Shown here: piece after piece, positions 4,229-63,628 of the stretch
Position numbering within the stretch: position 1 is the first letter of the stretch
Layout of the letters: each line of letters opens with the position of its first letter
Source: Liolophura sinensis
Taxonomy: Eukaryota > Mollusca > Polyplacophora > Chitonida > Chitonidae
Assembly (NCBI RefSeq): GCF_032854445.1
Contig: NC_088295.1
Span: 48,409,385-48,473,384 of the forward strand
Length of the DNA: 64,000 nucleotides
Direction of reading: 5' to 3'
Program-made: the position numbers and the translations under genes
The notes under the pieces: model-generated
Database searches by the model: none
Seen by the model: only the letters and a program-made list of their open reading frames with translations
What the model was told of the DNA's origin: nothing

Positions 4229-4519
4229 ATTCTTTGGAGGGGCCTCCGTGGCTCAGTTGGTTAGCGCGCTAGCGCACCGTAATGACCCAGGAGTCTCTCA
4301 CCAATGCGGTCGCTGTGAGTTCAAGTCCAGCTCATGCTGGCTTCCTCTACGGCCGTACGTGGGAAGGTTTGCCAGCAACCTGCGGATGGTCGTGGGTTTC
4401 CCCCGGGCTCTGCCCGGTTTCCACCCACCATAATGCTGGCCGCCGTCGTATAAGTGAAATATTCTTGAGTACGGCGTAAAACACCAATCAAAAAAAAAAA
4501 AAAAAAAATATTCTTTGGA
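4229..4519 (+). repeat. SINE family 1, full-length copy with target-site duplication
   Basis: The body runs from GGCCTCCGTGGCTCAGTTGG (A-box region) through GAGTTCAAGTCC (B-box region) to a long A tail. It is flanked by perfect repeats ATTCTTTGGA at 4229-4238 and 4510-4519. It lies in the last large intron of the T-box gene, antisense to it. Confidence 0.95.
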
Positions 4520-26300: not shown

Positions 26301-29300
26301 CTTGACCTGGATGTATCAAATATAAACCAATCAGGTCCTGTTACAACCCCGACTGCGAGGCAGTTATGATAGCACCAGTCAACAGCCATTAATGGAGAGG
26401 TCCCACAATCCAAGGACATGATTGGTTGCTGGTTGTGTAAACTGTAGATTCGTACTATTCCATTCTTTTGGGCAACCAATATCTAGGCAAGATAAATTGT
26501 AAATACAAATATCAGTTTCTTATCAAGCAGATATCCAACCAATATTAATAAACTGCAAAAAAAATTGTCTTTTTTGGAATTTCCTAAAGAAGCCAACTAG
26601 ACATGACAATTCCTCCACACTACTTTATGTAAATTTACACACCTCAATAATATTAGAGAAGATTTTGAGAGACTGATGAATCATGTGGGTATTCCATATT
26701 TATACAGAGTAACAAGCATGTAGAGTACCTTATACACACTTTAGGTGCTTAGCGTGCAGCACGGCACAGCGTCATGACCCAGGAGCCTCTCACCAATGCA
26801 GTCGCTATGAGTTCAAGTCCAGTTCATGATGGCTTCCTCTGCAGTCAGCAACCTGCTGATGATTGTGGGTTTTTCCCAGGATTTTACCCAGCTTCCTCCC
26901 ACAATACTGCTGGCCGCCGTTGTATAAGTGAAATATTCTTGAGCATGGCGTAAAACACCAATTAAATGAAAAAAACAAATATACACACTTTAGATCTATC
27001 TGACATCAAAGTCCTGCTCTAAAGTGTGATTTCACATTACACAAATTCCATACCCAGTACCTTCATGGGTTCCTCATGATGCCAGCATACCCCCATGCCA
27101 GGTGACCCCAGGGGGAAGCAGACTGTTTGAACCCCATCCTCTCCCCACACCCGACATGTCTGGTCATCCCCTACACTGGCGATCTGATTACCTTTGTCAG
27201 GGTCAAAGGTCACCCCATTTACGTAGCAGGTGTGGCCCTCCAAAAGCTGTAAAAATCAAAAAGTTATGTACATATAATTTCAAGGAAAGGAAGTAAATTA
27301 TTATTTCAAATTTGCCTTTTAAACACAAAAACAAGTGTTTATTTCCTTTTCTGACACATACTTGTGATGGAAAATGGTTCAGTTAACTTTATGAGCGTGG
27401 GGGTCAAGTACATCTAACTTAATATCCTCATCCTCATGTTGTCTAGTTACACTCTCTGATGCCCTTTTGTATTTATTCCTTCCTAACACACTGAAAACTA
27501 AACCTTGCCCTGGTTTATTGACCATCATAGTAAAGGAACATCTCAAACAAACATCTTTGGGTGAAGAAATGTATAAAAAAAAAAAAAACAAAAAAAAAAC
27601 AATCGGCATAAAATATTCCCTTTCTCTACAAGACAACATACCTTCACAGAGTCATCATCCTTCAAATCTGAAGAAAATATTCTTAGCTTGTGATCTGCTC
27701 CTGCTGTCACAAACCTGAAATACATGTATACAAGTGTAAGTTATGAAAACCACGCCAGCTTACTTTTGTCAAGAAATAGTGATCACTATACCATTGATGT
27801 GTCCCCATCTTTGGTCAAAGTTTCAAACTTTAACACAACCTTTAACTACATTATCCCCAAGAACTCAGGGTTCTTTACCAGATGATCTGGGTACAATGAA
27901 TCAGATGTGATAAACATCAAGATGCAGATTTGTTAGAATCCATTTTTACAACATATAACATTTTACAGTACTGTACATGTACTGGCAAATCTTATACAGG
28001 CCTCTTGAGTAAACGTGGACATTGGTTATCTGCCCTTGAGTTTTCCCAAAATGATTAATTACCCTGATTGACTATAAATTTCCTCCATGACAAACTTGTC
28101 CATTTTTCCTGATTGGAACATGGGATGATACTGTAGTGGAAAGTTTCAGCACCAAAAATAATATTTTGTGACATTTATTTGCCTCCAAAAAATGCACTTT
28201 TGTGGGCGGGATTTTAGGTCAATTAAGGTATTTTATTATCTGACCGCCTGTTTAATACCATATTTAATAAGGCGTATTTTACCTATATGAGGGTAGTGAA
28301 ATTTATCCGTTATCAAGTTTGTTTGTCTCAATATCAATGACGACGTCTACTGATAGTCAATAAACAACTGCTTCTGTAATATGTATGTATTACAGTACCT
28401 TACAAGTTTTGGCACGATACTTAGAGAAGTAGCTGGACTCCATGAAAGTGCTGTCACTCTTGTTCCATGGTGAAACTGTCTAAGCTGAGAGTACTCAAAA
28501 TCTTCAACTTCTTTGCTCTCTTCCTGGAGGAAAAAGAAAAACAGTAATACAGTACAATGCAGCCACAATAGAATACCACTATGCTAGTGGCATAGAGTTA
28601 AAAGTGTGTCTGCAATCAGAACAAGTTTTTGAAAGAAAACATGTGTAATTTAATATAAAGATATTTTATTGTTCTTCTTTAAAGAAATTAAGTCATGACT
28701 GCCTTAATCTCAAATTAAATTTTAAAAAAAAATTCGATTTTTTTGCCTTCTGTCAAATACACATTGTTTCAGATTATTTAAGTTATAAATACAGAATTTC
28801 CAAAATCTGTTTATTTATATGTATTAAAGCCTTTGCACCCACTGCTTTGTGCTAGATATACTCTAGATTCTGACGATTAATAAAAAAGTAGTGCACCTTA
28901 TAAATATGGCTATCACCTGATGTGGAAAATTCCCACGTTCTGCTAACTTTATTCGTCCTCCATCACATCAATGTTTTTTTTTCCTCAGTCCATGACAGTT
29001 TAAGATGGGGTCCACAACAGTTTTTTCGGCCAAAGAAGACAACAAACCAACATCAAAGAGTGCTCCAGTTAAAAACCTGATGCAGTTGTTGTGGTAGTTT
29101 GTCAGGGCGTTTGAGACAAAAATTACCCATCAAATATTGCTTGAAGTTTGCAGATGGTTTACCAATGCTGGTTTTGACATTACATTTCGAGGTTTTTAGG
29201 GAATCGGTGGATCGCAAAAATAAGGTAGGATTCGAGCCGTTTCTTTTAGTGAAACTGTCCGCGTGGAAGTCTATATGACCAAAGCTAGGCGTTACGGTAG

Positions 29301-29978: not shown

Positions 29979-32900
29979 ATGGTAAGTTTCGTTGAAGTAC
30001 AGGCATAGTAAAAATACAATTAGTCCATCCAGGCCGACGCTATGGGAAAATAGTAGCTGCGCTTGAGTGAATCACACGTGTCTTGACAGATCCGGTGAAC
30101 TCACGTGGGTTGACAACAACAACAACATAACTATTTCTATGACTACCGAATTCACTGAGTGAAATTAGGACAAATTCCACCCCATTGAGCCACATGATTC
30201 AAATTATTACTTGGCTGTTGTAAAGACTAGGTTACTGCCCCCTTCTCAGATGTTTTTTTGAAAACAGTCTGGGTCTGGTCACATCCAAAGACCTTAAAAA
30301 AAGAAGTTGTGGCTTCCTTGCTTGCGTTCAGCATTAAGGGGATAGTACGACTGGTTGACCCGTATCAGTATAATGACTCGGGTAAGGTGGCTTACTTGTC
30401 TTCGGTAAGCCGTCTCAGTCAAGCTGCTCTAGATAAAAGAGCGATGGAAATCCGTCCTGCAACAAGGATGCACATTACACGTACGGACACTCTAAGGACT
30501 CCTTTGTTGTCATATGACAGAAAAATTGTTAAGTACATTGTTAAGCCCTAAGCACTCACTCACTCTTCAATAGTCTGAGATTGCTCTGATGTAAGGTTTG
30601 GCAAAAATTTTGTTGATAAGTTCTTTCTTATATCGTGAGGGCTTGAGATTATTTGGTAATGCTCAAAGCCACCTGCTGTACTGACAGCATTGACATATTT
30701 GGCAACTTGTAAATGCATCAGCTTTTTAAATGTAGCGGACGACAAATTCTTCAGTGAATTGACTTCACTCATGTTACGGCAACCACATCTTAACAAATCT
30801 CTAAGCACAAGTATCAGAAGCATTTATGTGGACTGTAATATGGACATAGGTAAAAGTTAGCCCCAGGTGGCTACTTCAACTCCTCTCTTTATACTGCGCT
30901 GGTGGAGTATTGTAGCCACACGGGCAACCAACGGTAAACCATACACAGATTCATGCCATGTCCGTTAAGTCCTTTATCAACAATGGCAGTGTTCCAAAAC
31001 TGTTGGCAACTTTGGCTCTTTCCTCTCAGCTTGACCACACACTCAACATCCCAAGTATGTTCCACTCTGAGATGGCTCACCAGCCCTGTATTCACAGCAC
31101 GGCAAACCATTTCTAAACAAGGCGGCGATTATGCTTGTCTTTACAGTTTTAACATGCATGCGCCATCTCGGAACAATAACTTGTTCAAGAGCAATAGCTG
31201 TGGTAAAGGCAGAATGGCTGCTGTGTTAGCAATGACTGTCATGTGAATTTGGGTGTCGTGTGTCCTTACAAAGTGGAATATAGATGAGATACTGCATGTG
31301 CAGGCGAGCTGAGAGGTAAGAGCCAAAGGTGTCTTTGGACCACAGCCATTGTTGAGAAAGGATTTATCGGGCATGGCATGAATTGATGTATGGTTTACCA
31401 ATGGTTGCCCTGTGGCTACGACACTTGGCCAGCCCAGTATAATGAGAGGAGTTAAAGTAGCCACCTGGGGCTAGTTAGAAGTCTCATATTGATACTAGGC
31501 TTCTGTGAATACTGTGCATCTATAACAAACTATTGGACTGGGGATGTTGTGGATGCTAGCTGTTTCCCCAATGCTTCCCCATTCTTATGGGCAGACATTG
31601 CTCAACATTCTTGCTTTTGTCAGCTGGGAATACAGACTGTAGCTTACTGCTTGAGCCATTTGGTAATCAAAAACGGCCCAGTCCAATATAGCAAGTCGTT
31701 TTATATACACACAATGGGGTCCTCCGTGGCTCAGTTGGTTAGCGTACTAGTGCAGTGCAATAACCGAAAAGCCTGTCACCAATGTGGTCGCTGTGAATTT
31801 AAGCCCAGCTCATTCTGGCTTCCTCTCCAGCGGCAAGTGAGAAGTCACTAATATTTCCTCCACATTTAGTTGATGTGGCTCACAAGGAATAAAATCTCTG
31901 CTACTATCTCATCTGAGCATACCACCAACCACCATGACTATGTTGTCACCTTTGCAAATTCAAGTTCAACTCCTGATACCGTGCACCCAGGACAGAAGTA
32001 ACAAGATGTTTACTATCACACGGAATGTGAATTCTGAAATTCACAAGATCGTGGCAAGAAGCCTGTTCAACAGCAATGTTTGAAAGTATTAGAGATTTTG
32101 TTTCCCTGGAGTTTGTGCTTGATGGGAAGTGCACCTGCTAAATTAAAAGGTTGAGGAGAAGACGTCATATTCCAGGTTTTATAAGTTTATCCTCTTTATT
32201 CAATATAGAATTACAATGGGGCATACTTATTTTAATATATATTCATTGTTGGCAGTTGGGGCCTCCGTGGCTCAGTCGGTTAGCGCGCTAGCACAGCGTA
32301 TTGACCCAGAAGCCTTTCATCAATGCGGTCGCTGTGAGTTCAAGTCCAGCTCATGCTGGCTTCCTCTCCGGCTGTAAGTGAGAAGGTCTGTTAGCAACCT
32401 GTGGATGGTCATGGGTTTCCCCCGGGCTCTGCCTGGTTTCCTCCTACCATAATGCTGGCCGCCGTCGTATAAGTGAAATATTCTTGAGTACAGAGTAAAA
32501 CACCAGTCAAATAAATAAATAAATTGTTGGCAGTTTGACTGGCATGATACAAGGAGAAGTTCAATGGCTTTCGTGTCAAAGATCCAGCATCATTGATTTA
32601 GATGTGAGTTTAATTCTGGGTGTTGAATCAGTGTCTGACATATTCCATTCGCTTAACAAGGCTCTTAAGTGTAAGGCAACAACCACTTTTTGTCTGATTC
32701 CTGTTACAGTTGTTGGGACTTTTGCTTGTTTTTCTGTTTTTTAACCATTCTTTTTGATGTTAATTTTGTGAGAGAAAGGAAAAAGCCCCCCTGGATAGAT
32801 GGTTCCCAGCCTTGTACGTTGTATGTTATTGTTTGTGTGTTAACAGGCGTCCTTAAACCCTGTCCAGATCTTCAGTGCTGGAGCAGAAGAGGAGAAGGCA

Positions 32901-46830: not shown

Positions 46831-47266
46831 TAAGTGTGTGCTGGATATGCAAGAACTTAATATGTAAATTTTCAGTAAAATCTCGAAAACCAACCACACC
46901 ATTTATTTTTCTATTGTTGAAGGATTTTTGCAGATATCAGCGATTTTCTCTGTAATATTTCATAACTCTATATGCTCTGATCTGCACTACCAAGCGTTCA
47001 CTGTCGGACAGGATGTTACCACTGACTAAATAAGGTATTTTAGGGCCCTTTCTGATTGGCTAAAGATAATTCAAGAGGCGTGACCGTCGAGACACAATGC
47101 CTCCCATTTTTATCACTGCATCTTAAATAACCATCTTAAGGTTCTCAGTATAAATATAATGAGACAATGGTTTGGAGCTCAGTTTCATTCGTTAACTGGT
47201 AGATCTCTATCTCTCATGTTTTGTTGTTTTTTTGTTTGTTTTTTTTGTGTCACAACGTCGTGAACG

Positions 47267-47406
47267 ATGTCTGCGGCGAAGAAAGCCAAGTACGGTGTAG
47301 TTATGGTGGGATTTGGACTGGCTGCAAAACTGAGATTGACAGAGTTCCAGGAAACTATCAATAATGAGATAACGGAGCGAGTACAGCTGAACGGTTTTGT
47401 CTCAAG
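47267..47406 (+). CDS. Duplicate BLVRA-like first exon (alternative first exon or orphan)
   Basis: A 140-bp open exon starts with ATG, encodes 46 codons plus two bases, and ends TCAAG|GTTTG. This matches the exon at 51384-51523 in length, phase and donor context. The encoded segments share about 23 of 46 residues, including KYGVV, QLNGFVS and the start MS. The dinucleotide-binding motif here reads GFGLAA, whereas the other copy has GLGRSG, so the third glycine is lost. No copy of exons 2-7 was found before 51384. It could splice in frame to 56174 as an alternative first exon, or be a relic of partial gene duplication. Expression is unknown. Confidence 0.7.
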
Positions 47407-48587
47407 GTTTGTCAATCTTAAAAAATCTTTGTGTTGAAAAGAGAATGAGTTACAGGCGCAGCCGAAATAGCTAGAAATGGATTCGACCACGCAACCTAAG
47501 TGGTCAAAAGCCTGACAATTGCAGCCAGCCAGCGGTTCAACCGTCTGAGCAAAGGTGCAAAGACGTAAACTGGCCATTCTCAGGAAATGAGCAAAGTTTT
47601 GTGGAAAGGTCGTAGCTTTGGCCAAAACTATATATGCTCAAAGTTTTTGATATTAAATGACACGGTGTTATAAATAGGACATGTTTTCAGAATTGCACAA
47701 TAACTGGTTTCCGGTTATAATTTTTATTACTTGATGATTACATTTTGAATAGTTTGAAATCGAGAAAGCCTGTGCGCTACCCTCGGGGATGGTCTAAATG
47801 AGGACGTTTATTCGTCAGTAACTTGTCAAAGGTCAGTGGTTTGGGAACGGGCACCACGGTATATTTTACGACAGAATAAAAGGTTGCTGTAAATAGGTTA
47901 CCGATAATTAAATTACTTCTGGACAAAGATTACTGAACTCAGTTACCACTGAATGACGTCTACGGATTTTAGCTGTGACATTACATCATGCTGGTGTATG
48001 TTTTTACCATTACAACACCGCGGCTGAAGAAAGAAAAACATAAGGCAATTTTGAGGATTTACAGCACCTTTTGTTGTAAACCTGTGCAATTAGGTGTAAA
48101 TTTATAGGCGGATGTGAGTTGTTTAGCTACAGAAAATGCACCGTATCCCACTGTCAGTAGGTTTCGGTAAAACTCCACCATTTTTATGACAGTGAAGTCG
48201 AACAAATTTGGTACATTTAACACCTATTGCTTGATTAGGATTGATTGATCTACCTTATATTATCATTTAAGAGTTTTGTAAAGTCGTGGTAATTTCCCAT
48301 CATCAAAATTATCATTTTACGGCCTTTATGAGATTCTGAAAGAACGTTTTTACATACCAAGCTTTAGGTAAAATACGGTACTCCGATTTGTTCACAAGGA
48401 ATGAATGTAATCTCTTCGTCTTCCCTACCAACGGGAATGTTAGAGATTTAAGTATTTAAGAGATTTAGAGATTCATATATATATTTACATTGAAATAGGA
48501 GAGAGGGATCAGGACAGTAATTCATAAGCTGATTTGAATGATATGTTTTGAAGCTGTAAAAATTCCGTATACGTAACAGACAGTAGA

Positions 48588-48715
48588 ACAGCTATTCTTC
48601 ATTAACGGTCTGTCTGATTACATCTTTATAGATTGAAATATATAGACCTATACAAATGCTGTTCGTTCATCTCTAAACCTGCCATCGTTATGCCAGGTTA
48701 GATTCCCCCAGGTTA
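48588..48715 (+). repeat. Duplicated intronic segment, paralogous to 53583-53702
   Basis: Both contain ACAGCT-TTCTT-ATTA, TCTGATTA, AGATTGAAATAT or a close form, then TCTCTAAA and a CCCCAG end, in the same order. Each lies downstream of one of the two BLVRA-like first exons. Confidence 0.6.
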
Positions 48716-48794
48716 GTTCAAGGTGTATCAAGATAAAGCGTTTTAATCAAACTGGTGTAATAAAATTGTGCATTTCATTACTATATTTTAAAAA

Positions 48795-48908
48795 AGTGGG
48801 AAGGTCTGACATCAACATGATGGGCGAGGATTTTCATTAAGGCTCTGCATGTTCGTATAAGTGAAATATTATCGATTACGGTATAAAAATAAATAAATGA
48901 ATAAATAG
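48795..48908 (+). repeat. SINE family 1, degraded copy
   Basis: GTGGGAAGGTCTGACATCAA, GTATAAGTGAAATATTATCG and an A-rich end. Confidence 0.65.
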
Positions 48909-49319
48909 ATTTGAAAGTCCCCACAGTCGATCAGGATCATGGCATTAGTGGGGTAAGGTGAGATGCAGTGGTGATAATCGCAATTTAATAGACAATGATT
49001 TAGAATTACTCAGAATGATGTGTTATGTCATTTAATACACGATCACACGGAGACACTTGGTTTTGAGGGAGAGAAGTCGTTTTTAAATATTTGTGTTCAT
49101 AATAGGCTCGCTATACAAGACAAAAATTGTAAGAGATGAAGATCGAATTCACGGTGTTTCTCTACGGGAGCTGAACAAGTGGTAAGGAAGACCAAAATAT
49201 GTACTACAATAAATTCAAAGTTTTGCATCGTTTAAAACTGAATGTTCATCAAATCATATAGGAAAAAAGAATACATGTTAACAGGTCACAGCTGGAAAAG
49301 CTCGTGTATTTGTCCGTTC

Positions 49320-49486
49320 GTTAGAATCTTGATATTGTAAACTGTATTTCGGTCAGAATCTTGATATTGTAAATTGTATCTCCGTTAGAAGCCTGATTTT
49401 GAAAATTGTATCTCCAGCAGAATCTTGATATTGTAAATTGTATCTCCATCAGAATCTTGATATTGTAAATTGTGTCCCCAGAACTA
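49320..49486 (+). repeat. Tandem repeat, unit about 34 bp, five copies
   Basis: Unit AGAATCTTGATATTGTAAAT plus TGTATCTCCATC. Confidence 0.9.
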
Positions 49487-49503
49487 GTGAACCGAATTTA
49501 ATT

Positions 49504-49792
49504 AAAATTGTTTTGATTTATTTATTTATTTGATTGGTGTTTACGCCGTACTCAACAATATTTCATTTATACGACGGCGGCCAGCGTTATTGTGGGAGGA
49601 AACCGGGTGGAGCCTGGGGGAAACCCACGACCATCCGCAGGTTGCTGACAGAACTTCCCACGTACCGCCGGAGGGGAAGCCAGCATGAGCTGGACTTGAA
49701 CTCACAGCGACCGCATTGGTGAGACTCCTGGGTCATTACGCCGCGCTAGCGCGCTAACCCACTGAGCCACGGAGGCCCCAAAATTGTTTTGA
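49504..49792 (-). repeat. SINE family 1, full-length copy with target-site duplication
   Basis: The body 49517-49779 is complete, from the (TTTA)n tail to the CCACGGAGGCCCC head. Perfect 13-bp flanks AAAATTGTTTTGA lie at 49504-49516 and 49780-49792. Confidence 0.95.
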
Positions 49793-49849
49793 AGCTGAAT
49801 TGCAAAGCAAAAACTAATATAGCTACGTATATGCCGGATACAAGACCAT

Positions 49850-49928
49850 GACAGCCATCGTGTAGATGGAAAATTCCTGAGTGTGGCGTTATAGACATCA
49901 ATCAAGTAAATCAAACAATAAATAAATA
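49850..49928 (+). repeat. SINE family 1, tail fragment
   Basis: GACAGCCATCGTGTAGATGG, GAGTGTGGCG and an A-rich end, decayed. Confidence 0.5.
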
Positions 49929-50452
49929 TTAAACATACAGGAAATAATGATTGTAAGATGTGCCATACACAGGAGCATAAAACCATTTCTGTTCCACTGT
50001 GTATACTGTCTAAATGGTACAACTAAAATAATGACAATTATTTGACCCCAGATTTTAGCTCGGAACCCAGAAATGTATCAAGGAAGTCTCATCTACATTT
50101 TTGCTTGAAATGATTCAATTTAAGGTAAATTCGCTGGATGCAGTAATTGCCCCTGATGTACATATTTGCACTCTGAATGCCGTCCTTGTGTATTAAGTGG
50201 TAGAAAACCCATGCGACGTCATCACTTGTCACAATATGAACAGCAAATGCCATGCACTTTTCAATCTTTACATGTTTCCAATGCATGTTATTCGACTGAA
50301 AATAGTTCTGTTGTCCCGGAGAATGTTTAAATGCCTTTCGTTTGACATATACTTTAGATTAGTGACTTATATGTACACATACAGTTTAGCTGAGGTGTTG
50401 TGTGGAACAAGGATGTACGTTGTGTCAGTAGGCCTACTCAATCTTGACTTGG

Positions 50453-50785
50453 AGTGAGTGATTGCTTGCTATTTAACGTCATACTTAACAATCTTTCAGT
50501 CATATGACGACAAAGGAATCCTTAGAGGGCATGTAATGTGCCTCCTTGTTTCAGGACGGATTTCCACCGCTCTTCTATCTAGTGCTGCTTCACTGAGACG
50601 CCTTACCGAAGGCAAGTAAGCAGCCCCACACGAGCCATTATAGTGATACAGGTCAACCAGTCGTTGTACTATATCCCCTTCATGCTGAACGCCTAGCGAG
50701 GAAGTTACAACTTCCTCTTTTAAGGTATCAGGTGTGACTCGACCCAAAACTGACCCCGGATCATACCGCTCCCGAAGCAGACGTT
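50453..50785 (-). repeat. SINE family 2, copy
   Basis: Starts GAGTGATTGCTTGCTATTTA, contains TCATATGACGACAAAGGAAT, and ends near the tRNA-like region (GACTCGACCCAAAACTGACC). Confidence 0.85.
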
Positions 50786-51383
50786 CATTTTGACTTGGAG
50801 GTCAAATTTAAATTATAAAATTATAAAACTTGAATGTGAGTTACAGATGTTTCATATAGACACATATCAAAAACAAACGTAGCCCTTATAAGGAAACATT
50901 TGGAGAGTGCAGACTTGCTGTATTTATTTCTAAAATACACAAACCCCCACTCGGTTAAGGTCTGTCAACGTTGATCTCTCGTCTAATGCCAAAAAAAGAG
51001 ACCTTCATGACAAAAAAACAACGAAATAGAAAATAAATCTGTTTAATTTTTTAGTTGTTAATAGCATCGCCATCAGCTAATAAGTTAGATGCATCTCACC
51101 ATTTACACTAAAATCTGCAGTGTTTATCGTCATAGGCAAGAGTGAAACCAGTCATGAGTTACATCCCCTTATTCCGAGTGATGCGCATCAGGGGAGACAA
51201 TTCAATGCCATGTTGCGAAACACGTGGTTATGTTTTCATTGCTAGCAAGTAACTTACTCAAGTTTCAGTCGATTGTACATATCATCAGGTGTTGATGTTG
51301 AGTACAGCATCAGTTATTTACAACAAATAGCAGGTAGATTTAACGCCTGTGAGTTATTGTAATAACGTCAACGTGAACGAACG

Positions 51384-54300
51384 ATGTCTTCTGCAATACA
51401 GTCTATGTACGGTGTTGTTGTTGTGGGACTTGGACGATCTGGGAAACCCAGAGTGAGGGATTTACAGAAAACTTTCGACAATGAGACACTGAAACGTATA
51501 CAGCTGAAAGGTTTTGTTTCAAGGTTTGTCGTTTATACTTGTGTTTAAATTAGAGCGTACATGTACGATAAACTTGTTTCCGGTTGTAAGTGAGGCCTAA
51601 CGGCCGTATGCTGATACGTAGCTCTATGGGGCTATGTTTATGTAAAAACGTGCATAAACATAGATGGTGTAATAGTTTCAGATTCTGACATTCATCGTGA
51701 CAGTGAATCCATCCCTGCCTCTCAAAAAATTCGCCACAGATTTCCGAACTCCAACTCGATGGAGCCGATCTCATTGAGGTCCACGCTCACTTCATGATGA
51801 ATGTCAGAAATTTAAATAGCACACTGACTGACTGTCTGGTTTCATGTGGATAAAACTCATTCATACGTAGTCGGAATTTTTTGACTAGAATTTGTCCATT
51901 CCCCCCTTTTTTTGTTCCTGCCATTTTGTGAGTAAGGGCTGCTTACATCCCATGTGCGACATCTAACAAACTGCAACATGCTATCAGGTTTATTGCAATA
52001 TCTGCTGAAAGTTCTAGTCAGAGAATTCAGGCTAATTCATACATTATAATATTAGCATACCCAAATGATTTTCAAAATTAATAGAAACCACAACAAACTA
52101 TATATTTTTGGAGAGTTCAAAACATTGCCTAAATATTTCATTCATGTTTCTCTGGGAAGTATATAGAGTTTATAATACTGATAGAAGATTGGTAACATTT
52201 AAGAAATACTGGCAGATTTAGGGGTATAAGTCGCAAAAAATGCAGAAGTTCACCTATTTGGGTACCTCATTTTGATTTCCAGAAGCCCGTTCTGGAAAAA
52301 ACTTTCAGCTTTGGTTAATATGTAACAAATAAAAATTAAGTACTAATACAGTGTTTGAAAGTTTTCATTTTTAACTCAAAATTAAGTAAGATATTCTTTT
52401 GTGAAGTCTACCCTGTGATTGCTTGCGGTAAAAGAAAGTACTGTCATATTTGTCAATTATTTTACCCTAATATTAACAATTATTTATTTTGTAAGGTTAC
52501 ATTACACCGTCCAAGCAAGTGCCGTAATCTCTTCACAAACAATCAGCTGTGAACTATTTCTGGAATGGGAGACACAAGGACGAACTACACAGAAGGTCCA
52601 AATGACAATAGAACGCATCGTTTTCTTCTGTGACATTGCAGTGTGTTTGTACTTCATATGTTATATGAGCACACGTACACTGATAATTACGGCGTAATAA
52701 AAGAACGAACATATGACTTTGCAGCTTTGAAACGTCTTGATACAGACGGAAAGGAGTTTTACGAGTCCCCCATTGCTTCTTGAGGCATATAAATTCCATC
52801 TTCTGTTGTGCAGATTTATTTTCTTTGTTTAATCACAAACATTTACTTACATCACATAGTTTAGCCAATAAGGTTGTCTTTCGTTTTAAACTGTTATCAG
52901 CTGTGTAATACACATAAAAGCAGCATTTGTATATTTCGAAAGTCTGTAGCGCAGAACCCTGGGCTTTGCCCACACTGTTTCCCACTGCCCAAAATGATGA
53001 GTACACAACCTCTAACACCTTGTTCTTCGACCACCCCCCCCCCCCCCCCACCCCCCCAATATATCGGGTGCTATTTGGATGTAATGATACAGAAAAACGC
53101 GGTGCAAAAAGGGTTGTTCAACCGGGTATCTTGGGATCAGTGTTCAGCCATTTAACAAAACAAACTGGTGGCACCCCTTAACGAGTTTTGGGAACCCTAA
53201 TAATATTGAGCATGGCTCAAGTTGAGGTCTGTTTTCAATAATTTCTGATCAGGTAAATATTAGAAATTGTTGAAAATAGACCTCAACATTTAATTTGATT
53301 GAACTTATATGGTCTTGCAAACTGCAAAAGAGTGACAGAAAACTTCAGATCATGTCCTCAAATCTAAAGAAGGGCCAAAAAAGATGCCAACATCTGTCTC
53401 CTCTTCTTCCCTCCTAAAATATAGTCCTGCATTTGTCCAGTGCATTAAGTGTTGAAGTCTGTTTTGAACAATTTGATGTTTGCTTATATACTTTTTAAAT
53501 GGATTGAAAGAAGGGAAAAAATGAAACAGTACAATAGACATTTTGCAAGATTGGTGATAGATAATGATCTGTTACTGTCACTGACAGCTGTTCTTTATTA
53601 GCAACCTATCTGATTAGATAAATTGAAATATGTACATACTCTTCTTTTATCTCTAAAGCTATCTAAATCTATCTTCTTTATTTTACTCCAAATTCCCCAG
53701 ACAAGTGTTTTGTATCAGTATTATCATTAATAAATACTCTCACAGCCAGACTATGCGTCCAGGAACCATTAAAGTAAAAGAAGGCTAACATAGGTCGTAA
53801 GTTTCATCATATAGAGTGAGTGAGTGAGTGCTTAGGGTTTAACGTCGTACTCAACAATTTTTCAGTCATATGACGACGAAGGAATCCTTAGGGTGCATGT
53901 ACGTGTAATGTGCCTCCTTGTTGCAGGAAGGATTTCCACCGCTCTTTTATTTAGAGCTGCTTCACTGAGACGACTTACCGAAGGCAAGTAAGTTGCCCCG
54001 CCCGAGCCATTATACTGATACGGGTCAACCAGTCGTTGCACTATCCCCTTCATGCTGAACGCCAAGCGAGGAAGTTACAACTTCCTCTTTTAAAGTCTGA
54101 GGTGTGACTCGATCAAGGATTGATCCTGTCATCATATAGACAACTGAAAACTATGCGTAAAAAAAAACTATTTTTTTTTAAGAGTGTAGAAAGACATTCA
54201 GATATTGGAATAGTATGGTGGGCTTTATGAGCCATACTGATGGGGTCTAGGAACTTTGTCATCATATCACCTTTTTGATTGAAGTTGGAAAAACTTCCTG

Positions 54301-57300
54301 TGACATCAGAGTTCCTACACTCTGATAGTATGGTCCATAAAGCCCACCTTAAAATTCAAATGTTTGAACGCCTTTAACTCTCTTAACGAAAATCTCGAAA
54401 AGTAAATGAAAGTATATTTACACATAGTTTTAACTGGTCTGTTTAGTGATACCTACTTCAATTTTTAGAGATCTTTACCTTTAAGGGAAAAAATACATTA
54501 AATTATGTTTTGATACATCATAAAAATAACATTTTAGCTGTGTTTTTTTTATACCATTAATCAAGCTTTCATGCATAGAATGATAAAGCAACAAATATTC
54601 CAAAAAGTTTATTTTGTTATCTAGTTCACTGAAGTTTAAAGTCATGCTCAAGAATATGTCAGCAGAATTTTGAATGGCAGTTCAGTTTGCATGTTGAGTA
54701 AACTGGTGCGAGACCAGGACCAGACCATTCCCATTCAGCAGATGCATTTTGTGTCAGTGTTCTAACCTCATTGACAAGTGGTTAGCTATTTAGCACAAAA
54801 CAGTGGCTTAGGAGCCTTTCACAAATGAGGTTGATGTGAGATAAAGTCCAACTCATGCTGGCTTCCTCTCCAGTGGTAAGTGGCAAGGTACCTGTGGATG
54901 GTCATGGCAGGCCCCTGCCCAGTTTTTTCCTACTACAATGGTGGCTACCATTCTATAATACTCTTCATTATGGCATAAAATATCACTCAGATAAGTAAAT
55001 AAATCATCAACTCACATGTATCTTATATCATGTGTGTCAGTTGAACTGCTTTGGTTATTCTTAGGTATTCTGATCCCAAAGATAGTCTACAGACAAAATG
55101 TCTTGCCCCAAGGCCAACAACAGTGTGTTAAGGATGGATTGGGTTGTCTTTGCTATATCTAGAATATTTTCTTGAGTTCTCTCAATCATAAAACAATATT
55201 AGAGAAAAGGACGTTTCATTTAACAAATCAAATGCGGAAAACTGTGCAATTAATACCAGAAAGTGATCTCTTGCTAAACTATCAAAACTTAATGTTGAAA
55301 GTTTATTTCAACTCTATGGTTATGCCCTTTTGTTTTTTTGGAAAAGTGTTATGAAGACAACTGCATAGAGCAATGATTTCACACATTTTTTTTTTTTTTT
55401 TTGGCTAGAGATTATCGTAACTTTCACAAGCTCTTTCTAATCCTAAATACCGGCCACAATGGCTCAGGTGGTGGAGCATCCGATTGGTGAGTGGGAGATC
55501 CAGGGTCAATCCTGGGTCTTGTCAGACCTAAGACTTTATAAGAGGAAGTTGTAACTTGGCGTTAAGTATGAAGGAGATAATGCAACGACTGGTTGACCCA
55601 TATCTATATAATAGCTCGGGTGGGTGGCTTACTTGCCTTCGGTAATTTGTCTCTGAAGCAGCACTAGATGAAAGAGCAGTGGAAATCCCTCCTGCAAAAA
55701 GGTGGCACATTACATGCTCTCTAAGGACTCCTTCATTGTCATATGAAATATTGTTAAGTACGATGTTAAACCCCAAGCACTCACTCACTCTGAACCTAAA
55801 TAGGAGCAGGGTTTTTGTGAATAAAGATTGATGTGTTTGCTGAAATGGCAGTGGTGAAATTGACAAGAGAGCTGATTTCATTGATTTTATTGGCCGTTTG
55901 ATAAGTCACACTGTTGTCGCTGCTCTGGTTGTACTCTCCATACTGCAGTCGTTTGTATTTATTATTATTAATAACTGACAAAGTTTTAAACCATAAATGT
56001 TACTACAAAAATGTCAGCCTATCATTCATTGAAAAAGTTGATAGCATTAATTTATCAAGTAACCATTAATTAGAGAACTCGAATCAATCAAATTAAATGC
56101 GTTGACTTAAAATTTTAAAATAATATTCAGAAATTTTGGATAAATTCAAGATTTTGACATTTTCTTGTTTTAGGAGAGATGTTTCAGAGGACGGCTTATC
56201 AAAGCTAAGCCTGGATGAGGCTTTGTCCAGGGATGACGTGGACATTGTTATTGTAGCTACAGAGCCTAAGATGCATGAGCAGTATGTCAGGTACATATAC
56301 ATGACTGAGCCCTTACTGAAAGTCAGTAAAACCATTTTGCTTTATAGTATTCCCTGTCTAACTTTCTGCAATCTTTGTTGGAACCCCTTTTTGTGTTCAC
56401 TGTGTCACAGACTCACTGACTCATCACCATGTATATTTGGGAGTTTGTCAGTTACTGGTGCGTGTCAAGATTTTAGACAGACTCTCAGAATGTAGTTTAT
56501 TCTCTATAAACACATTGGGTTGGCAGGGTTAAATTGTGCATCATGATGTGAAAAAGTGGAAAACTTTATTATTTAGATTCTTCAAAGGTGTGACATATAC
56601 ATACATACATGATTTTTATTTCTTGTTTAGGATGTAATCTTACAAAGATGGTACAAAAATGCTTCTCTGGCGTCTTCGTGGAGCTTAAAATGGCTTTAAG
56701 TCACAGTATTCTTAAGTTCTCAACTGGCAGTCTCTAAACTAAGTACATTTACTTGTAAGCTGAAGCCATGACCTGATTTGAGTGATAGTTGTCAAAGCAA
56801 ACTCTTCGGCATCAGATATTTTAATATCAGGCGGTGGGGAAGTGACCATGTTGTTATTATTATTGAAAATTTGTGGCTGAATTTTTGAAAAATTTACAAA
56901 ATTCAGCAGTGTAACTAAATATTCAAATGGTGTGAGAAAGAGAAACAATTTTGATGACATAATAGACTATTAGCACAGTCTTCATTTTAATTACATCTGC
57001 ATGTATTTAGGATTGGAAATTTAGTGATGTGATAACATAAATTACTTGCTTCCATGTATAATTAGGGTTAACTCACTGTAATTATCAGAAATATGTTTCA
57101 CCAATACATTTCATAATTAATGGTGAATGTAATGAATAAATTTTATGAGTTTTTATGCGTATTATTATTATTTGCTCTCTTTTCATTACTGACTGTATAC
57201 CTTCATTTATTTTTCTGACATCAGGAAGGTACTGGAGGCAGGAAAGCATTGTCTGGTGGACTATCCTCTGGCTCTAACCTCCGCCGCAGCCAAGGAATTG

Positions 57301-60300
57301 TACCAGCTAGCCAGGACAAAAGGTAGAACACCTTCATGACAGTCATTATAACACAAATCATTACAACTTTTAAGTAAAGGGGGCCTCCCTGGCTGAGGTA
57401 GTTATCACGCCAGCTCACCCCAATGAAATAAGAGCTTCTCACTAATTTATTTATTTATTTGATTAGTTTTTTACGCCTTACTCAAGAATATTTCACTTAT
57501 ACGACAGCAGCCAGCATTATGGTGGGAGGAAACCGGGCAGAGCCTGGAGAAATCCACAACCATCCGCAGGTTGCTGGCAGACCTTCCCACTTACGGTCGG
57601 AGAGGAAGCCAGCATGAGCTGGACTTGAACTCACAGCAACCGCATTGGTGAGAGGCTCCTGGGTCATTACGCTGTGTTAGCGCGCTAACCAACTGAGCCA
57701 CGGAGGCCCCTGCTTCTCACTAATGTGGTCGCTGTGAGTTCATGTCCCTCTCATGCTGGCTCCCTCTCCGACGGTTTGTGGGAAGATCTTTCAGTAACCT
57801 GTGGATTATTGTGGATTTTCCATGGGCTCTGCCCTGTTTCCTCCCACCATAATGCTGACCCCCGTCGTACAAGTGATATATTCTTGAGTGTGCCTTAAAA
57901 CACCAATCAAGGCAATAAAATAAATATTGCAATACAACATAGCGTTAGCTCTCAAATTTTTGTCATTGTTGCACACATCTGTACATGGTATTAAAAGTTT
58001 CACTCAAATCTTTTAGACATTTTTTCAGATTTTGTATCCTCTTAAGACATGTTAGAGGCTGTTGTTATCACAGTTTTAATGACAGCCACAATATAATACC
58101 CACTAGCATACACTTAAAATCTAGCATCAAACTGTGTGCAATTGTATATTATTCATGTCATGGCTCACAAAATTTTCAGATCTCTGGTAGCTCTTCAGAC
58201 AAGCTACCTGGAAAATTTGGTTGCCCGAAAAACTTTCTGGTAGCCCAAATTCAGCGAATAAAATAAGTGAAGTATTTGTTAAATCAATTTTAGGTGTTTG
58301 CAGAGTCATTTAAATAAGAGGAATTCATTTAAATCAGAGGAATTCATATCCAGTCCACAAACCTGTGTCATTAATGTTTGAATAAAGCTTGAACGGACAG
58401 TAAAGTGTCACGGTTTTTGTTTTTACACCTGGAATTTCCACTAGCCTGACAGGCAGGTGATTCCACTTTATAGGTTGCCTGACAAAAATTTCTACATGTA
58501 GTTGTCCTGGGATGTCAGATTAGCAATTTTACAAGCCACCAGTGGTTAATATACAGCACACCACTTGCATGCATTATATGTACAAAGTTAAACCCCACAC
58601 ACACACACACGCATACGCACACGCACACACACCATGAGGACCATCCTGCAGGTTGCTGTCAGTCCTTCCTCTGAACAGGCTCCTTTTCATTGGAGCAATA
58701 AATGTCATTGTGACGGTATTGACAAAATATGGTCAGTAAAGCCTACATTACAACTGAAACATTTTTGTGACATTTATATCAGTAAGGAAGACAAAGTAAG
58801 TAAAAGTTTTTCAGCCTCAAACTATAACTGGATAGGGCATCACAGTCTGGTGTCTTCAGAATGACACTCCAGTGAGCCATGAGTATATAGCCATTGAGAC
58901 CAACCCACAAGGAGGTGCTACCATATTATCCAGCTTGGTGTGACCTAAATAATTTTAATGTGACATTTAATCTGTCAACAAATAGTCATGTGGGTGCTGT
59001 ATTTTCTTGTAGGTGTATCATTACATGAAGAAAACATTGGCATCATGTCAAAAACAAGTCAATACCTGAGAGAGGAGCTAAAGAAGAGGCCACCAGTAAC
59101 AGAAGTAGACATGCTTCTGCTAGGTAATGGATGCATCCCTTCCTACCTTATGTCCAACCACCCCTTCACATAACAATGCTAATTATTGTTTTCAAAGTGT
59201 TGGCCTACGAATGGTGAAAAGAAGGCCGAAAATTAGGCGTAGCAGACCAACTTGAAATAGACCTGCCAACCCATCCACATACACCCCCGCACCTTTCAAA
59301 TAAAATCGCAGGCCAAGCCTGTGATGTCATTGTATGCACAACTATAAATTTTTCTTTCTAATGTTTGGCAGCATGACATAGATACAACAAATTTATTATT
59401 TGTTGCAGGACGGATAGATGTTACAAGAGATAACTTTGAGCTACTTAACAAATTATCTCCCTTTGCTTATGTGCGCTCTCATTGCTGCATGCACTTACGT
59501 TTTTGCCTCAACTAAAGAGAAACTAGTTGACTTTTTGTGTGGATTGACCATAAAAGGATCCTTTCAGTAACTCATACACATTTAAATCCATTTCGCACTA
59601 GTTATATGCAGATAATTTGATAAAGTGTTGACCTCTTTCTCTTCAAAATCTGTTTTTTTCTCTAAGGCAAACGGCAGAAAACATGGATGACGAGACTGTG
59701 AGAAAGCTGTGCAAACGATACACGATAGCTACAAGCCTTTACTGAAAGCTTTGGAGCTGACTGGGCAAAATGTTCTTTCAGTTTTTAATCCATGATGACT
59801 GATGAAACCATTGCTAAACTTGTCATTTAGGTCTGCATGGTCCAGTTAGTTGATTTTGCATATGTTTTGGTGTGTGGTTCCAAAATTTTAGTAGACCAAA
59901 TTTGCCATGACTGCTAAAAATTATTTTGACCATTGAGAAGGAAATATCTCTGTGGATATCAACAATGTTTTGACGTAGAAGTGGATTTATACTTGCAGGA
60001 GTGATAAAAGGGGTCATATTCCCTGAAGCTTTTGAGTGAATTTAAAGGCCCACTTCATTCCGCAAAGTGATTTTTTGGAATTCAGTGATTAAATGTTGAG
60101 GTAGGCAAGTATCAGAAATAGATGAAAATAGATCTCAACGTCAGGGCCTTGGTGATCTTTCATGTAGCCTTACATGAAGTTCTTTAAGGGACCACTTGGT
60201 TTGAACTGTATATTACTGTAATTCTTCAACCTTTTAGAATGTTTACAAGGTGTTTATTCAAGCATATTCTGAAAGCATTATTCTGTGAAGACTGACCCAA

Positions 60301-63300
60301 ATTTGGCCAATCAAAACAAAGTAGTTTTATCTCCAAAATCTAATCATATATATTTGCATAAATTGCTCAGAAAGCTACTGTTTCATATGTGAAAAGGTTG
60401 AGGAATTGGGGTGACCAAGACAGTGAACACCAGATCTGCTTATAAAGTGCAGTGTGAACTTGTTCAGATGTGACCTTGTGCAGATGTGACCTTTGGCAAT
60501 GGTGACCTCATGCAGATGTGACCTTGTGTTGATGTAAAACTAGAGTGCATCAAACTGTAACAGGTTCTGGTCTGAATGGTCTTACTCGCAAATAATATCA
60601 ACTACTGCTTTTGTGACCGTAGGTAATTACAACGGCTGGATTGAAGACTGGGAGAGTTCGGGTGGTCCGTTTGTCACGGGTAATGGCATGCTACAGACAG
60701 CTCTGTCCCTGTTCGGCCCCCTGGAGGTGGACGGAGCTAGCTTACAGCAAGAGGTGGACAAGTATTCGGCTGTTGGACATCTCTTTATGACCGAGAAAAG
60801 GTCAGGACTCGCTTCACTACCTGTTGAGACAACCTCTGTAGTAGTTGTACGATTGGACATGATCTGTCTACTGTCTAATAGAGAACAAGAATGAGAATTT
60901 TTCTTTTTTTTCTTTTTTTGCAGATTTTTGGATATCATTTTTTTGGGGGTACATTTTGTTTTCTTTAGGTACATTAGTTGGATTGGCCAGTATCAGGGTT
61001 TAACACAAAGTATAGTCAGTGTACACAGAATAATGCCTTCAGAATATTCTTGAATAAACACCTTGCAAACATGTCAAAAGGTTGAAGAATTAACACATTA
61101 ACACTGTCATACTAAATAAACACAAATGTTATTCATGAGAAAGTTTATGCAGTCTTTGGCTTCCTAACATCTGAATGCCATTAAAAGAAGCTGTAACATT
61201 TGAGATACATATGCATGTTAGATGTGAAAATTGGGAATAGGCATGTAGAATGCCATTAAAAGAAGCTGTAACATTTGAGATACATATGCATGTTAGATGT
61301 GGAAATTGAGAATAGGCATGCAGAATGCCATTAAAAGAAGCTGTAACATTTGAGATACATGTGCATGTTAAATGTGGAAATTGGGAATAGGCATGCAGAA
61401 TGCCATTAAAAGAAGCTGTAACATTTGAGATACATATGCATGTTAAATGTGGAAATTGGGAATGGGCATGCAGAATGCCATTAAAAAAAGCTGTAACATT
61501 TGAGATACATATGCATGTTAGATGTGGAAATTGGGAATAGGCATACAGAATGCCATTAAAAGAAGCTGTAACATTTGAGATACATATACATGTTAGAAAT
61601 TACATGTTAGAATACATGTGGAAATTGAGAGTAGGCGTGCACTGTTAGGTTTTGTCTTCTGGAAGAAGAATTCTGCCAAATTTGCGCATCTTGCTAAAAA
61701 AAAAAATTTTAGTTACAGTCGACTGTAAACATTAAAATTTACTTAACAATCAACTGTAAAAATAAGTGACTTAATAAAGAAGGTGCTTGCACGAAGGAGT
61801 TGTAAGGTGATAATATATATTTGAAGTTATGACTTGACTCGTTCGAAAATTTACTATCTACTAGTTTTTCTAAGGTACGTATTTGTACGTAACATTTTTT
61901 TCGGGTGATTGTAAATATTTAAAAATGGGTCGAGGCAATTGTAATCTTTGATGTAATGGAAATTACAACTATCATAGGTTACAATCCCTGCGTGCAAGAG
62001 GGGGTCAGCTGTAAGTTAAAGGAGAAGAAAACTTAAATATCAATCAAATACCATTGAAAAGAGTATGTATTTCCTCGCAGGTGCATGCCATAAAAAAAAT
62101 TCTAATATGTACCTCAAGTTGATAAAGTATAAAAAAAGTGAGTGCCAAAAGCCGTTGTGGGCGACTCCATTTTGCCTAAGAACTAGTCCTGAAGTCTTCT
62201 GTGTTAGGAAGAGAATTGTCGTCGGAAACCGCCGAAGTGCAATCTGTACATTTCCGGTAGAACTCTTCTTCCCAGAAGGTAGGGAACAGTACAGTTCGTT
62301 TTCTGCTGATCAGGAAACCGAAATGCTGGGCGTAGGTTCTGAGTTTACACGAACAAGCTGGCAGTTTTAACGACTCTCATTGGCTGAGAGGCAACACACC
62401 CCAGCATAAATTATGGGATGTTAAACATGGAGGACGCGATGGACTCAGCGATTTATGCCAGCTTTGCCGTTTTCAGGCTTTGTATGGCGAGGAAAAATCG
62501 CAAAGTTATGCAGCAGGCACCACCAGATAGAAAAAATGTGCTCTGTTCAGCCTATAGTGTCATTTTTTAAAGTTTTCTTCTCCTTTAAGGCTACGATGTA
62601 GTGTTAGCCATTTACTATGATCTTAGGCTTACAATATTTTTGTGCAAGCAGGCTCTGGTAACCTATAAATATGGATTTATTTTTTTCTTATTTTTTTGTT
62701 CTTCATTGAACTGAGAAATGATCTCAGCCATGGATTGATCACTTCAGGGCATGTATCACAAAATCATTGTCGTCCATTTATCAAATAAATAAATGAATAA
62801 TTTTCAAAAGGTTGTATTTCTGAGTGTGCTTCTGATTTTTTTCCAGACCTTTGAATTTAACATTACAGCGTGTGAAGGGAGAAGCCCAGAGGAGGAGTGA
62901 GTATGTGATTAAATTTGAAGATGGCAGTGTGATTGACAGCTTCCCCGATCACATCCTACAGCCTCCTAAGCCAGGGCACGTAGGTGAGAGAGTAAACAAG
63001 AAAAATATCCCAAAACTTAGACCCACTCTAACACAGAAATATTGCCACAGTAGAGAATCAACATCAGACAGGTGGTAGGTGATACATCACAAGACTGTGT
63101 GAAGTAACTCGTTGAGATAACATAAAAACATGTGTTTCGTATGAACGATGTACTCTGTGGAAACAGAAACTCAGGAGACCTGCCTTTGGGCTTGTGATAT
63201 TTACGGACTTTAGGCTTGTGATATTTACAGACTTTAGGCTTGTGATGTTTACGGACGTTAGGCTTGTAATATTTATGGACGCTAGGCTTGTGATATTTAC

Positions 63301-63628
63301 AGACTTTAGCCTTGTTATATTAGACTTTAGGCTTGTTATATTTAATGACCTTTATTCTTGTGTTTTTTACTGACCTTCATTCTTGTGTCTTGTACTGACC
63401 TTCAGCTTTGTGATATGTATTGACCTTCAGATTTGTGATACTTACTGACCTTCAGGCTTGTGATATTCACTGAAATCCAGATTTCTCTCTGTTTTAGGGT
63501 TATTCATGCAGGACTTGATCATGTTTGTGGATGAGATTGAAGGAAAACGAGATCCCAGTGAAAACATAGCCAGGACAATAAGGTCTCTAGAACTGGCACA
63601 GGAGATTCACTCTCACGTAGGCCTCTGA
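51384..63628 (+). CDS. BLVRA: Biliverdin reductase A-like oxidoreductase, seven exons, complete
   Basis: Exons: 51384-51523, 56174-56290, 57225-57322, 59013-59123, 60623-60800, 62847-62983 and 63498-63628 (stop TGA). All have GT-AG borders and correct phases, giving 303 aa (human BLVRA 296). The family reduces biliverdin to bilirubin with NAD(P)H in the cytosol and has a Gfo/Idh/MocA fold. Visible features: the Rossmann glycine motif GLGRSG (residues 15-20), [42 protein letters not shown] (about 91-104; Tyr99 aligns with human Tyr97), SLHEEN, and [11 protein letters not shown] in the C-terminal sheet domain. The human C-terminal Cys/His zinc-binding tail has no counterpart; this protein ends [13 protein letters not shown] diverged first-exon copy lies at 47267. 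The family is clear; the exact substrate is inferred. Confidence 0.9.
53031..53057 (+). repeat. Poly-C tract
   Basis: Runs of 16 and 7 C separated by a single A. Confidence 0.95.
53221..53287. repeat. Hairpin, 26-bp arms
   Basis: Arms 53221-53246 and 53262-53287 are reverse complements with two mismatches and a 15-base loop. Half-copies of an arm occur at about 53452-53480 and 60112-60140, so it belongs to an interspersed family. It lies in BLVRA-like intron 1. Confidence 0.85.
53812..54135 (-). repeat. SINE family 2, copy
   Basis: GAGTGAGTGAGTGCTTAGGG, TCATATGACGACGAAGGAAT, AGCTGCTTCACTGAGACG and GTGTGACTCGATCAAGGATT. Confidence 0.9.
54205..54360. mobile_element. Inverted-repeat (MITE-like) element
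   Basis: GGTGGGCTTTATGAGCCATA near 54219 pairs with a near-match on the opposite strand ending near 54344. Similarity continues inward through AGGAACT, so the whole piece can fold back. No target duplication was identified. Confidence 0.65.
54770..55005 (+). repeat. SINE family 1, degraded copy
   Basis: CAGTGGCTTAGGAGCCTTTC, CCAACTCATGCTGGCTTCCT and an eroded tail ending AAGTAAATAAAT. Confidence 0.75.
55448..55795 (+). repeat. SINE family 2, full-length copy
   Basis: CCGGCCACAATGGCTCAGGT (A-box region) and GATCCAGGGTCAATCCTGGG (B-box region) form a tRNA-like head. The family body and the end AAGCACTCACTCACTC follow. This is the most complete of four copies. Confidence 0.9.
57379..57915 (+). 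repeat. SINE family 1, outer copy split by a nested SINE
   Basis: The 5' part (57379-57446, GGGCCTCCCTGGCTGAGGTA) and the 3' part (57712-57915, GTGGTCGCTGTGAGTTCATG to the tail) are one element interrupted by the minus-strand copy at 57447-57711. Confidence 0.92.
57447..57711 (-). repeat. SINE family 1, full copy nested in another SINE
   Basis: Runs from its (TTTA)n tail to CCACGGAGGCCCC. The 13-bp duplication GCTTCTCACTAAT lies at 57434-57446 and 57712-57724, inside the outer element. Confidence 0.95.
58598..58632 (+). repeat. CA-rich microsatellite
   Basis: CACACACACACACGCATACG and similar. Confidence 0.95.
60226..60406. mobile_element. MITE-like element with short inverted ends
   Basis: Left end AATTCTTCAACCTTTT, right end AAAAGGTTGAGGAATT. 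Its left half is repeated in inverted orientation at 61010-61092. Confidence 0.65.
60466..60535 (+). repeat. Short tandem repeat, unit about 18 bp
   Basis: CAGATGTGACCTTGTG repeated about four times with variation, just before BLVRA-like exon 5. Confidence 0.8.
61010..61092 (+). repeat. Interspersed repeat, inverted partner of 60229-60302
   Basis: CACAGAATAATGCCTTCAGA and AACACCTTGCAAACATGTCA match the reverse complement of the upstream element. Confidence 0.8.
61170..61620 (+). repeat. Minisatellite, unit about 75 bp, six copies
   Basis: Highly uniform units containing GCCATTAAAAGAAGCTGTAA and CATTTGAGATACATATGCAT, in BLVRA-like intron 5. Confidence 0.95.
62016..62588. mobile_element. Non-autonomous DNA transposon with TTAA target duplication
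   Basis: A 565-bp element (62020-62584) has perfect 15-bp inverted ends, AGGAGAAGAAAACTT and AAGTTTTCTTCTCCT. TTAA lies on both sides (62016-62019, 62585-62588). TTAA duplication is typical of piggyBac-type elements. It has no transposase; the 101-codon frame inside matches no family I recognise. Confidence 0.85.
63185..63480 (+). repeat. Minisatellite, unit about 25 bp, in BLVRA-like intron 6
   Basis: Units of TAGGCTTGTGATATTTACGG change gradually into CCTTCAGGCTTGTGATATTC over about a dozen copies. Confidence 0.9.

Follow-up and report, generated by a model that had tools for sequence, protein, structure and literature searches.

A duplicated first coding exon in a BLVRA-like gene of the mollusc Liolophura sinensis and its possible use as an alternative first exon

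Background

The stretch of DNA analysed here (the window) comprises 64,000 nucleotides of the polyplacophoran mollusc Liolophura sinensis (contig NC_088295.1, positions 48,409,385 to 48,473,384 of the forward strand; all coordinates below refer to the window) and harbours a gene which, judged from its deduced protein, is biliverdin reductase A (BLVRA)-like. The first coding exon of this gene is present twice, as an upstream copy (1a) and a downstream copy (1b) separated by 4.0 kb (end of 1a to start of 1b). With modest confidence, the two are regarded as products of an exon duplication that serve a single gene as alternative first coding exons; they would be transcribed from separate promoters and spliced to a common exon 2.

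Gene layouts of this type are already known, while the occurrence in a BLVRA-like gene is new. In the UGT1 cluster, the variable exon codes for the substrate-recognising part of the enzyme. The variable first exons of this cluster are described to possess their own promoter each and to precede common downstream exons (PMC3325998, as far as its available text covers the cluster). The window gene likewise carries tandem homologous first exons ahead of one shared exon set, but has just two of them, which code for the cofactor-binding part of a reductase; a promoter for each first exon, as given for UGT1 in that text, and splicing of both to a common exon 2 are proposed for the window gene from the sequence alone. 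Alternative first exons have not been reported for a biliverdin reductase gene in the literature searched, which consisted mostly of papers accessible without subscription.

Signatures of bilirubin and biliverdin in shells were described in a colour study of pearl oysters, the available text of which also mentions expression of biliverdin reductase (BVR) genes in molluscs, although the study's own data lacked them (PMC7998362). If both first exons are used and the window gene is confirmed as a biliverdin reductase, the arrangement would bear on the bile-pigment chemistry of the host animal.

Results and discussion

Gene model and relation to BLVRA

Exon 1b begins a complete gene of seven coding exons (51384-63628, Table 1) for a protein of 303 amino acids. 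All exon borders, placed by eye from translations and splice signals, are of the GT/AG type with matching phases, and the stop codon ends at 63628. The start of the next exon at 56174, as given by an earlier annotation made from the letters alone (the first-pass annotation), agrees with this model.

Table 1 Features of the BLVRA-like gene and its duplicated first coding exon
Feature	Position	Strand	Remarks
TATA box of the putative exon 1a promoter	47149..47155	+	TATAAAT
Initiator-like element	47179..47184	+	TCAGTT; predicted start A at 47181, 32 bases past the initial T of the TATA box
Upstream open reading frame in the predicted 1a leader	47216-47263	+	15 codons; ends just before the 1a ATG
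Exon 1a (upstream copy)	47267..47406	+	46 codons plus 2 bases; GFGLAA motif; donor GTTTGTC
Intron segment past 1a	48588..48680	+	Similar to 53584-53660
Exon 1b (downstream copy, canonical first coding exon)	51384..51523	+	GLGRSG motif
Intron segment past 1b	53584..53660	+	Similar to 48588-48680
Coding exon 2 (shared)	56174..56290	+	Phase compatible with both 1a and 1b
Coding exon 3	57225..57322	+	
Coding exon 4	59013..59123	+	
Coding exon 5	60623..60800	+	
Coding exon 6	62847..62983	+	
Coding exon 7	63498..63628	+	Includes the stop codon

Comparison of the 303-residue protein with solved structures (phmmer) yielded 2h63 as best match (E 3.5e-39, residues 8-299). In the list of 42 solved sequences with E-values of 0.01 or less, biliverdin reductase A takes the first three ranks (E 3.5e-39 to 2.5e-35) and another biliverdin reductase the fourth (5b3t, E 1.6e-14), followed by other oxidoreductases; the window protein accordingly resembles solved BLVRA over most of its length and more closely than it does other oxidoreductases. 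It shares with the human and rat biliverdin reductase A structures 2h63, 1gcu and 1lc0 the N-terminal GVVVVGxGR start and a GFVSRR segment. It differs from them in that the similarity is moderate only and in the possession of two first exons by its gene. The N-terminal Rossmann domain of the 1b form displays the GxGxxG motif (GLGRSG). For both 303-residue forms (with 1a or 1b), the Pfam matches were confined to families of the Rossmann type, apart from two weak ones below threshold. A Pfam model specific to the BLVRA catalytic domain exists; neither form gave a match to such a C-terminal model at E-values up to 0.1 in a search run without positive control. Since Pfam assigned Rossmann-type families and no enzyme-specific catalytic model, the gene is named BLVRA-like.

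Two copies of the first coding exon

Exons 1a and 1b each comprise 140 bases, start with ATG, end in the same phase (46 codons plus two bases) and have the donor context CAAG/GTTTGTC in common. Aligned without gaps, they agree in 101 of 140 bases, and their translations in 23 of 46 residues; the five bases preceding the ATG and the seven bases past the exon end are identical. A blastn comparison of the window with itself pairs 47262-47413 with 51379-51530 (75.8 %, E 7e-22), and its alignment contains, in the early part of the exon, two one-base gaps that compensate each other and leave the total length unchanged. Re-measurement thus bore out the first-pass description of two 140-bp exons of equal length, phase and donor with about 50 percent protein identity, and of a GLGRSG motif in the downstream but GFGLAA in the upstream exon. 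A third exon copy was not found in the window by tblastn (E 1.2e-12 for the two copies, 1.2 for the next best). That one exon was falsely duplicated or arose by misassembly is very unlikely: no point in its support was found, and the difference of 39 in 140 bases, together with differing flanking DNA, is far beyond that between alleles or haplotypes.

Joined to exons 2-7, exon 1a yields an open reading frame (ORF) of 303 codons for amino acids, in agreement with the intact upstream frame claimed before. No further exons had been seen between the copies, and the best match to exons 2-7 there is indeed at chance level (E 2.4). A full tandem duplicate of the gene upstream of 1b was therefore rejected, the interval 47406-51384 being devoid of any trace of exons 2-7.

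Beyond the exons, the intron segments listed in Table 1 are each other's best non-self match in the window (score 33 versus 19 and 22 for the next), their score was reached by none of 1000 dinucleotide shuffles, and they occur in the same order and on the same strand as the exons. The similarity reported in the first-pass annotation (48588-48715 and 53583-53702) is hence real, but its core is shorter than stated there. The first 300 intron bases after the two exons showed no similarity (score reached by 286 of 1000 shuffles), and the regions upstream of 1a and 1b are not among the top eight matches of the window comparison. This pattern fits an old segmental duplication that is still visible in the exon and in a single intron element; the latter could be a shared enhancer.

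Splicing options and a candidate promoter of exon 1a

The survey of possible acceptors for 1a covered a stretch of about 200 bases upstream of 1b, which contains 14 AG sites. Splicing of 1a into any of them (14/14) leads to a stop at codons 48-81, so that a coding splice into the 1b leader was rejected, while a non-coding splice event would still be compatible with these sites. Because all 14 bring a stop, the join to exon 2 is the sole one among those tested to give a full protein. The pyrimidine fraction ranges from 0.35 to 0.65 for the 14 AG sites versus 0.65 to 0.80 for the six acceptors of the gene.

Located 86 bases before the ATG of 1a is a TATA-plus-initiator pair (47149/47181). A scan of the 64-kb window for TATAAAW followed by TCAKTY at a spacing of 28-34 recovered it as the only such pair on the + strand, with a mean of 0.275 pairs per 64-kb strand expected from a first-order random model (40 runs). 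Upstream of 1b, only initiator-like words were found. The promoter-like sequence of 1a and the ORF in its predicted leader could also be explained by a transcript that is mainly regulatory, acting as 5' leader or by read-through damping of the 1b promoter, such that the 1a protein would matter little; the altered glycine motif would agree with this. A purely regulatory RNA, however, need not keep a coding frame, and the differences between 1a and 1b at codon positions 1, 2 and 3 (13, 8 and 18, respectively) lean to a coding pattern, which renders this explanation improbable.

Divergence and expected decay of exon 1a

The first-pass annotation had proposed comparing synonymous and nonsynonymous change between the exons. 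The 14 synonymous and 25 nonsynonymous differences correspond to a ratio of nonsynonymous to synonymous rates (dN/dS) of 0.49 with a bootstrap range of 0.25-1.00, i.e. below 1 but with an upper bound of 1.00. The divergence is relaxed rather than clearly constrained.

Persistence of the exon under neutrality was simulated with 1a evolving neutrally and 1b constrained (5000 runs per setting, indels ignored). ORF, ATG and GT remained jointly intact in 5-11 % of runs, and in 0.1-1.5 % when the differences were also required to number no more than 21 at codon positions 1 and 2 and no fewer than 18 at position 3. The chance of no indel amounts to 0.04-16 % at an assumed 0.05-0.15 indels per substitution; it was not relied on in view of the compensating gaps in the 1a/1b alignment. 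Overall, neutral decay accounts poorly, though not impossibly, for the intact frame, start and donor of 1a.

These data bear directly on the main rival explanation, according to which a partial duplication left 1a behind as a relic, un- or rarely translated, with its frame kept by chance or its function lost recently. The dN/dS near 0.5 with its upper bound of 1.0, the loss of the arginine and the third glycine from the motif of 1a, the faster change in 1a than in 1b (six positions versus two, see below) and the survival of frame, ATG and donor in 5-11 % of the indel-free simulations are all in its favour. It is opposed by the absence of net length change in 1a with ATG and donor intact, by the identity of the bases that border the exon on either side and by the TATA-plus-initiator-like pair at suitable distance from 1a. 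On this evidence a relic is a possible but rather unlikely explanation.

Altered glycine loop of exon 1a

In the glycine loop of 1a (GFGLAA) the first two glycines are kept and the third is replaced by alanine; the arginine that follows the second glycine in 1b and in the solved vertebrate enzymes is leucine in 1a. The 303-residue protein with 1a nevertheless scores 64.7 bits against Pfam GFO_IDH_MocA versus 71.2 with 1b, at a cut-off of 24. Compared alone with solved proteins, exon 1a weakly retrieved biliverdin reductase A first (1gcu, E 0.099; 1lc0, E 0.84), these being the only two matches at E-values up to 10.

The available text of a review assigns GxGxxG typically to enzymes using nicotinamide adenine dinucleotide (NAD) and GxGxxA to those using its phosphate (NADP), and mentions that replacement of the third glycine by alanine has been used to ease NADP use (PMC5817062); elsewhere, GXGXXA/G is given as NAD(P)H motif in the text available (PMC8564101). 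Since GxGxxA is the form assigned to NADP enzymes in the former, 1a need not be crippled: its GFGLAA fits this pattern, but additionally carries leucine for arginine after the second glycine. The loop change may, as read from the motif, tune rather than destroy cofactor binding. The different cofactor binding suggested by the first-pass annotation is thus plausible, though the alteration is milder than implied there, with two glycines kept and the third changed to alanine, the form ascribed to NADP enzymes in the review. The more specific proposal that promoter choice sets the cofactor of the reductase, with 1b keeping GxGxxG, the GxGxxA form of 1a preferring NADPH or another ligand and the substrate site staying the same, is doubtful.

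Weighing the use of exon 1a as alternative first exon

Several observations weigh against 1a as a functional alternative first exon. Two AG sites among the 14 surveyed before 1b reach a pyrimidine fraction of 0.65, equalling the two weakest true acceptors, so that skipping of 1b is uncertain. Purifying selection on 1a is not demonstrated, as the dN/dS bootstrap reaches 1.00, and under a looser decay criterion (copy intact and nonsynonymous change not above that observed; 400 runs per setting, 0.25-0.45 divergence per branch) 0-7.2 % of neutral copies remained intact. Within residues 8-27, 11 of 20 positions differ between 1a and 1b (ungapped), and the two vertebrate enzymes jointly match 1b at six of these and 1a at two, indicating that 1a changed faster. 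Exon 1a alone gave no Rossmann match in Pfam at E-values up to 1, in contrast to a weak one for 1b alone (E 0.096). As to the promoter, an equal TATA-plus-initiator pair without known role is present on the - strand at 26704, TATAAAW words number 35 on the + strand, and the pair before 1a was spotted by eye before the scan was defined, making the latter supportive rather than a clean test. The 15-codon upstream ORF could lower translation from 1a. The 200 bases upstream of the two exons align weakly (score reached by 15 of 1000 shuffles).

The promoter pair, the dN/dS, the decay simulation and the faster change of 1a together tend to favour an exon that is used but diverging. Both options put forward in the first-pass annotation, a pair of alternative first exons and a partial duplication with maintained frame, still stand; the evidence leans to the former, because 1a is preceded by a promoter-like pair and neutral decay seldom keeps frame, ATG and donor jointly.

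For alternative first exons the following course is envisaged. An old segmental duplication would have copied the first exon and some flanking DNA, and each copy would possess its own promoter, with TATA box and initiator in case of 1a and without TATA box in case of 1b. A transcript initiated at 1a would run through 1b and leave it out, since first exons do not require a splice acceptor; the 1a donor at 47406 would be joined to the exon 2 acceptor at 56174. The two resulting proteins of 303 residues would have residues 47-303 in common and differ only in the first beta strand, the glycine loop and the first helix of the cofactor-binding Rossmann fold. If both exons are used, the gene would represent a clean natural experiment with two enzymes identical from residue 47 and different only in nucleotide-binding loop and first helix; a dehydrogenase-type enzyme would then have its cofactor site varied by the variable-first-exon design.

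Neighbouring genes and repeats

Dispersed repeats of about 300 bases are located at 50452-50742, 53818-54112, 55497-55790 and 30270-30566, with copies being 77-88 % identical. The first three blocks recur near 30.3 kb and hence do not count in favour of a duplication of the exon. Another dispersed repeat of about 270 bases looks like a tRNA-derived short interspersed nuclear element and occurs in many copies (49516-49779, 57445-57925, 32256-32525, 4238-4505 and others); the block at 57445-57925 forms an inverted repeat in self-alignment, as though it consisted of two facing copies of this element.

Directly upstream of the BLVRA-like gene and on the same (+) strand lies a gene for CCT-beta (TCP-1 subunit beta) at about 36.3-44.3 kb, past which exon 1a starts after 2.9 kb. 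Its last exon (stop at 44319) is backed by PDB matches and the exons at 40-43 kb by Pfam, while ORFs before 40 kb presumably represent further exons of this gene. On the opposite strand, the ORF 8468-8866 matches the T-box domain (PF00907, E 1.3e-11) and probably represents a single exon of a T-box gene.

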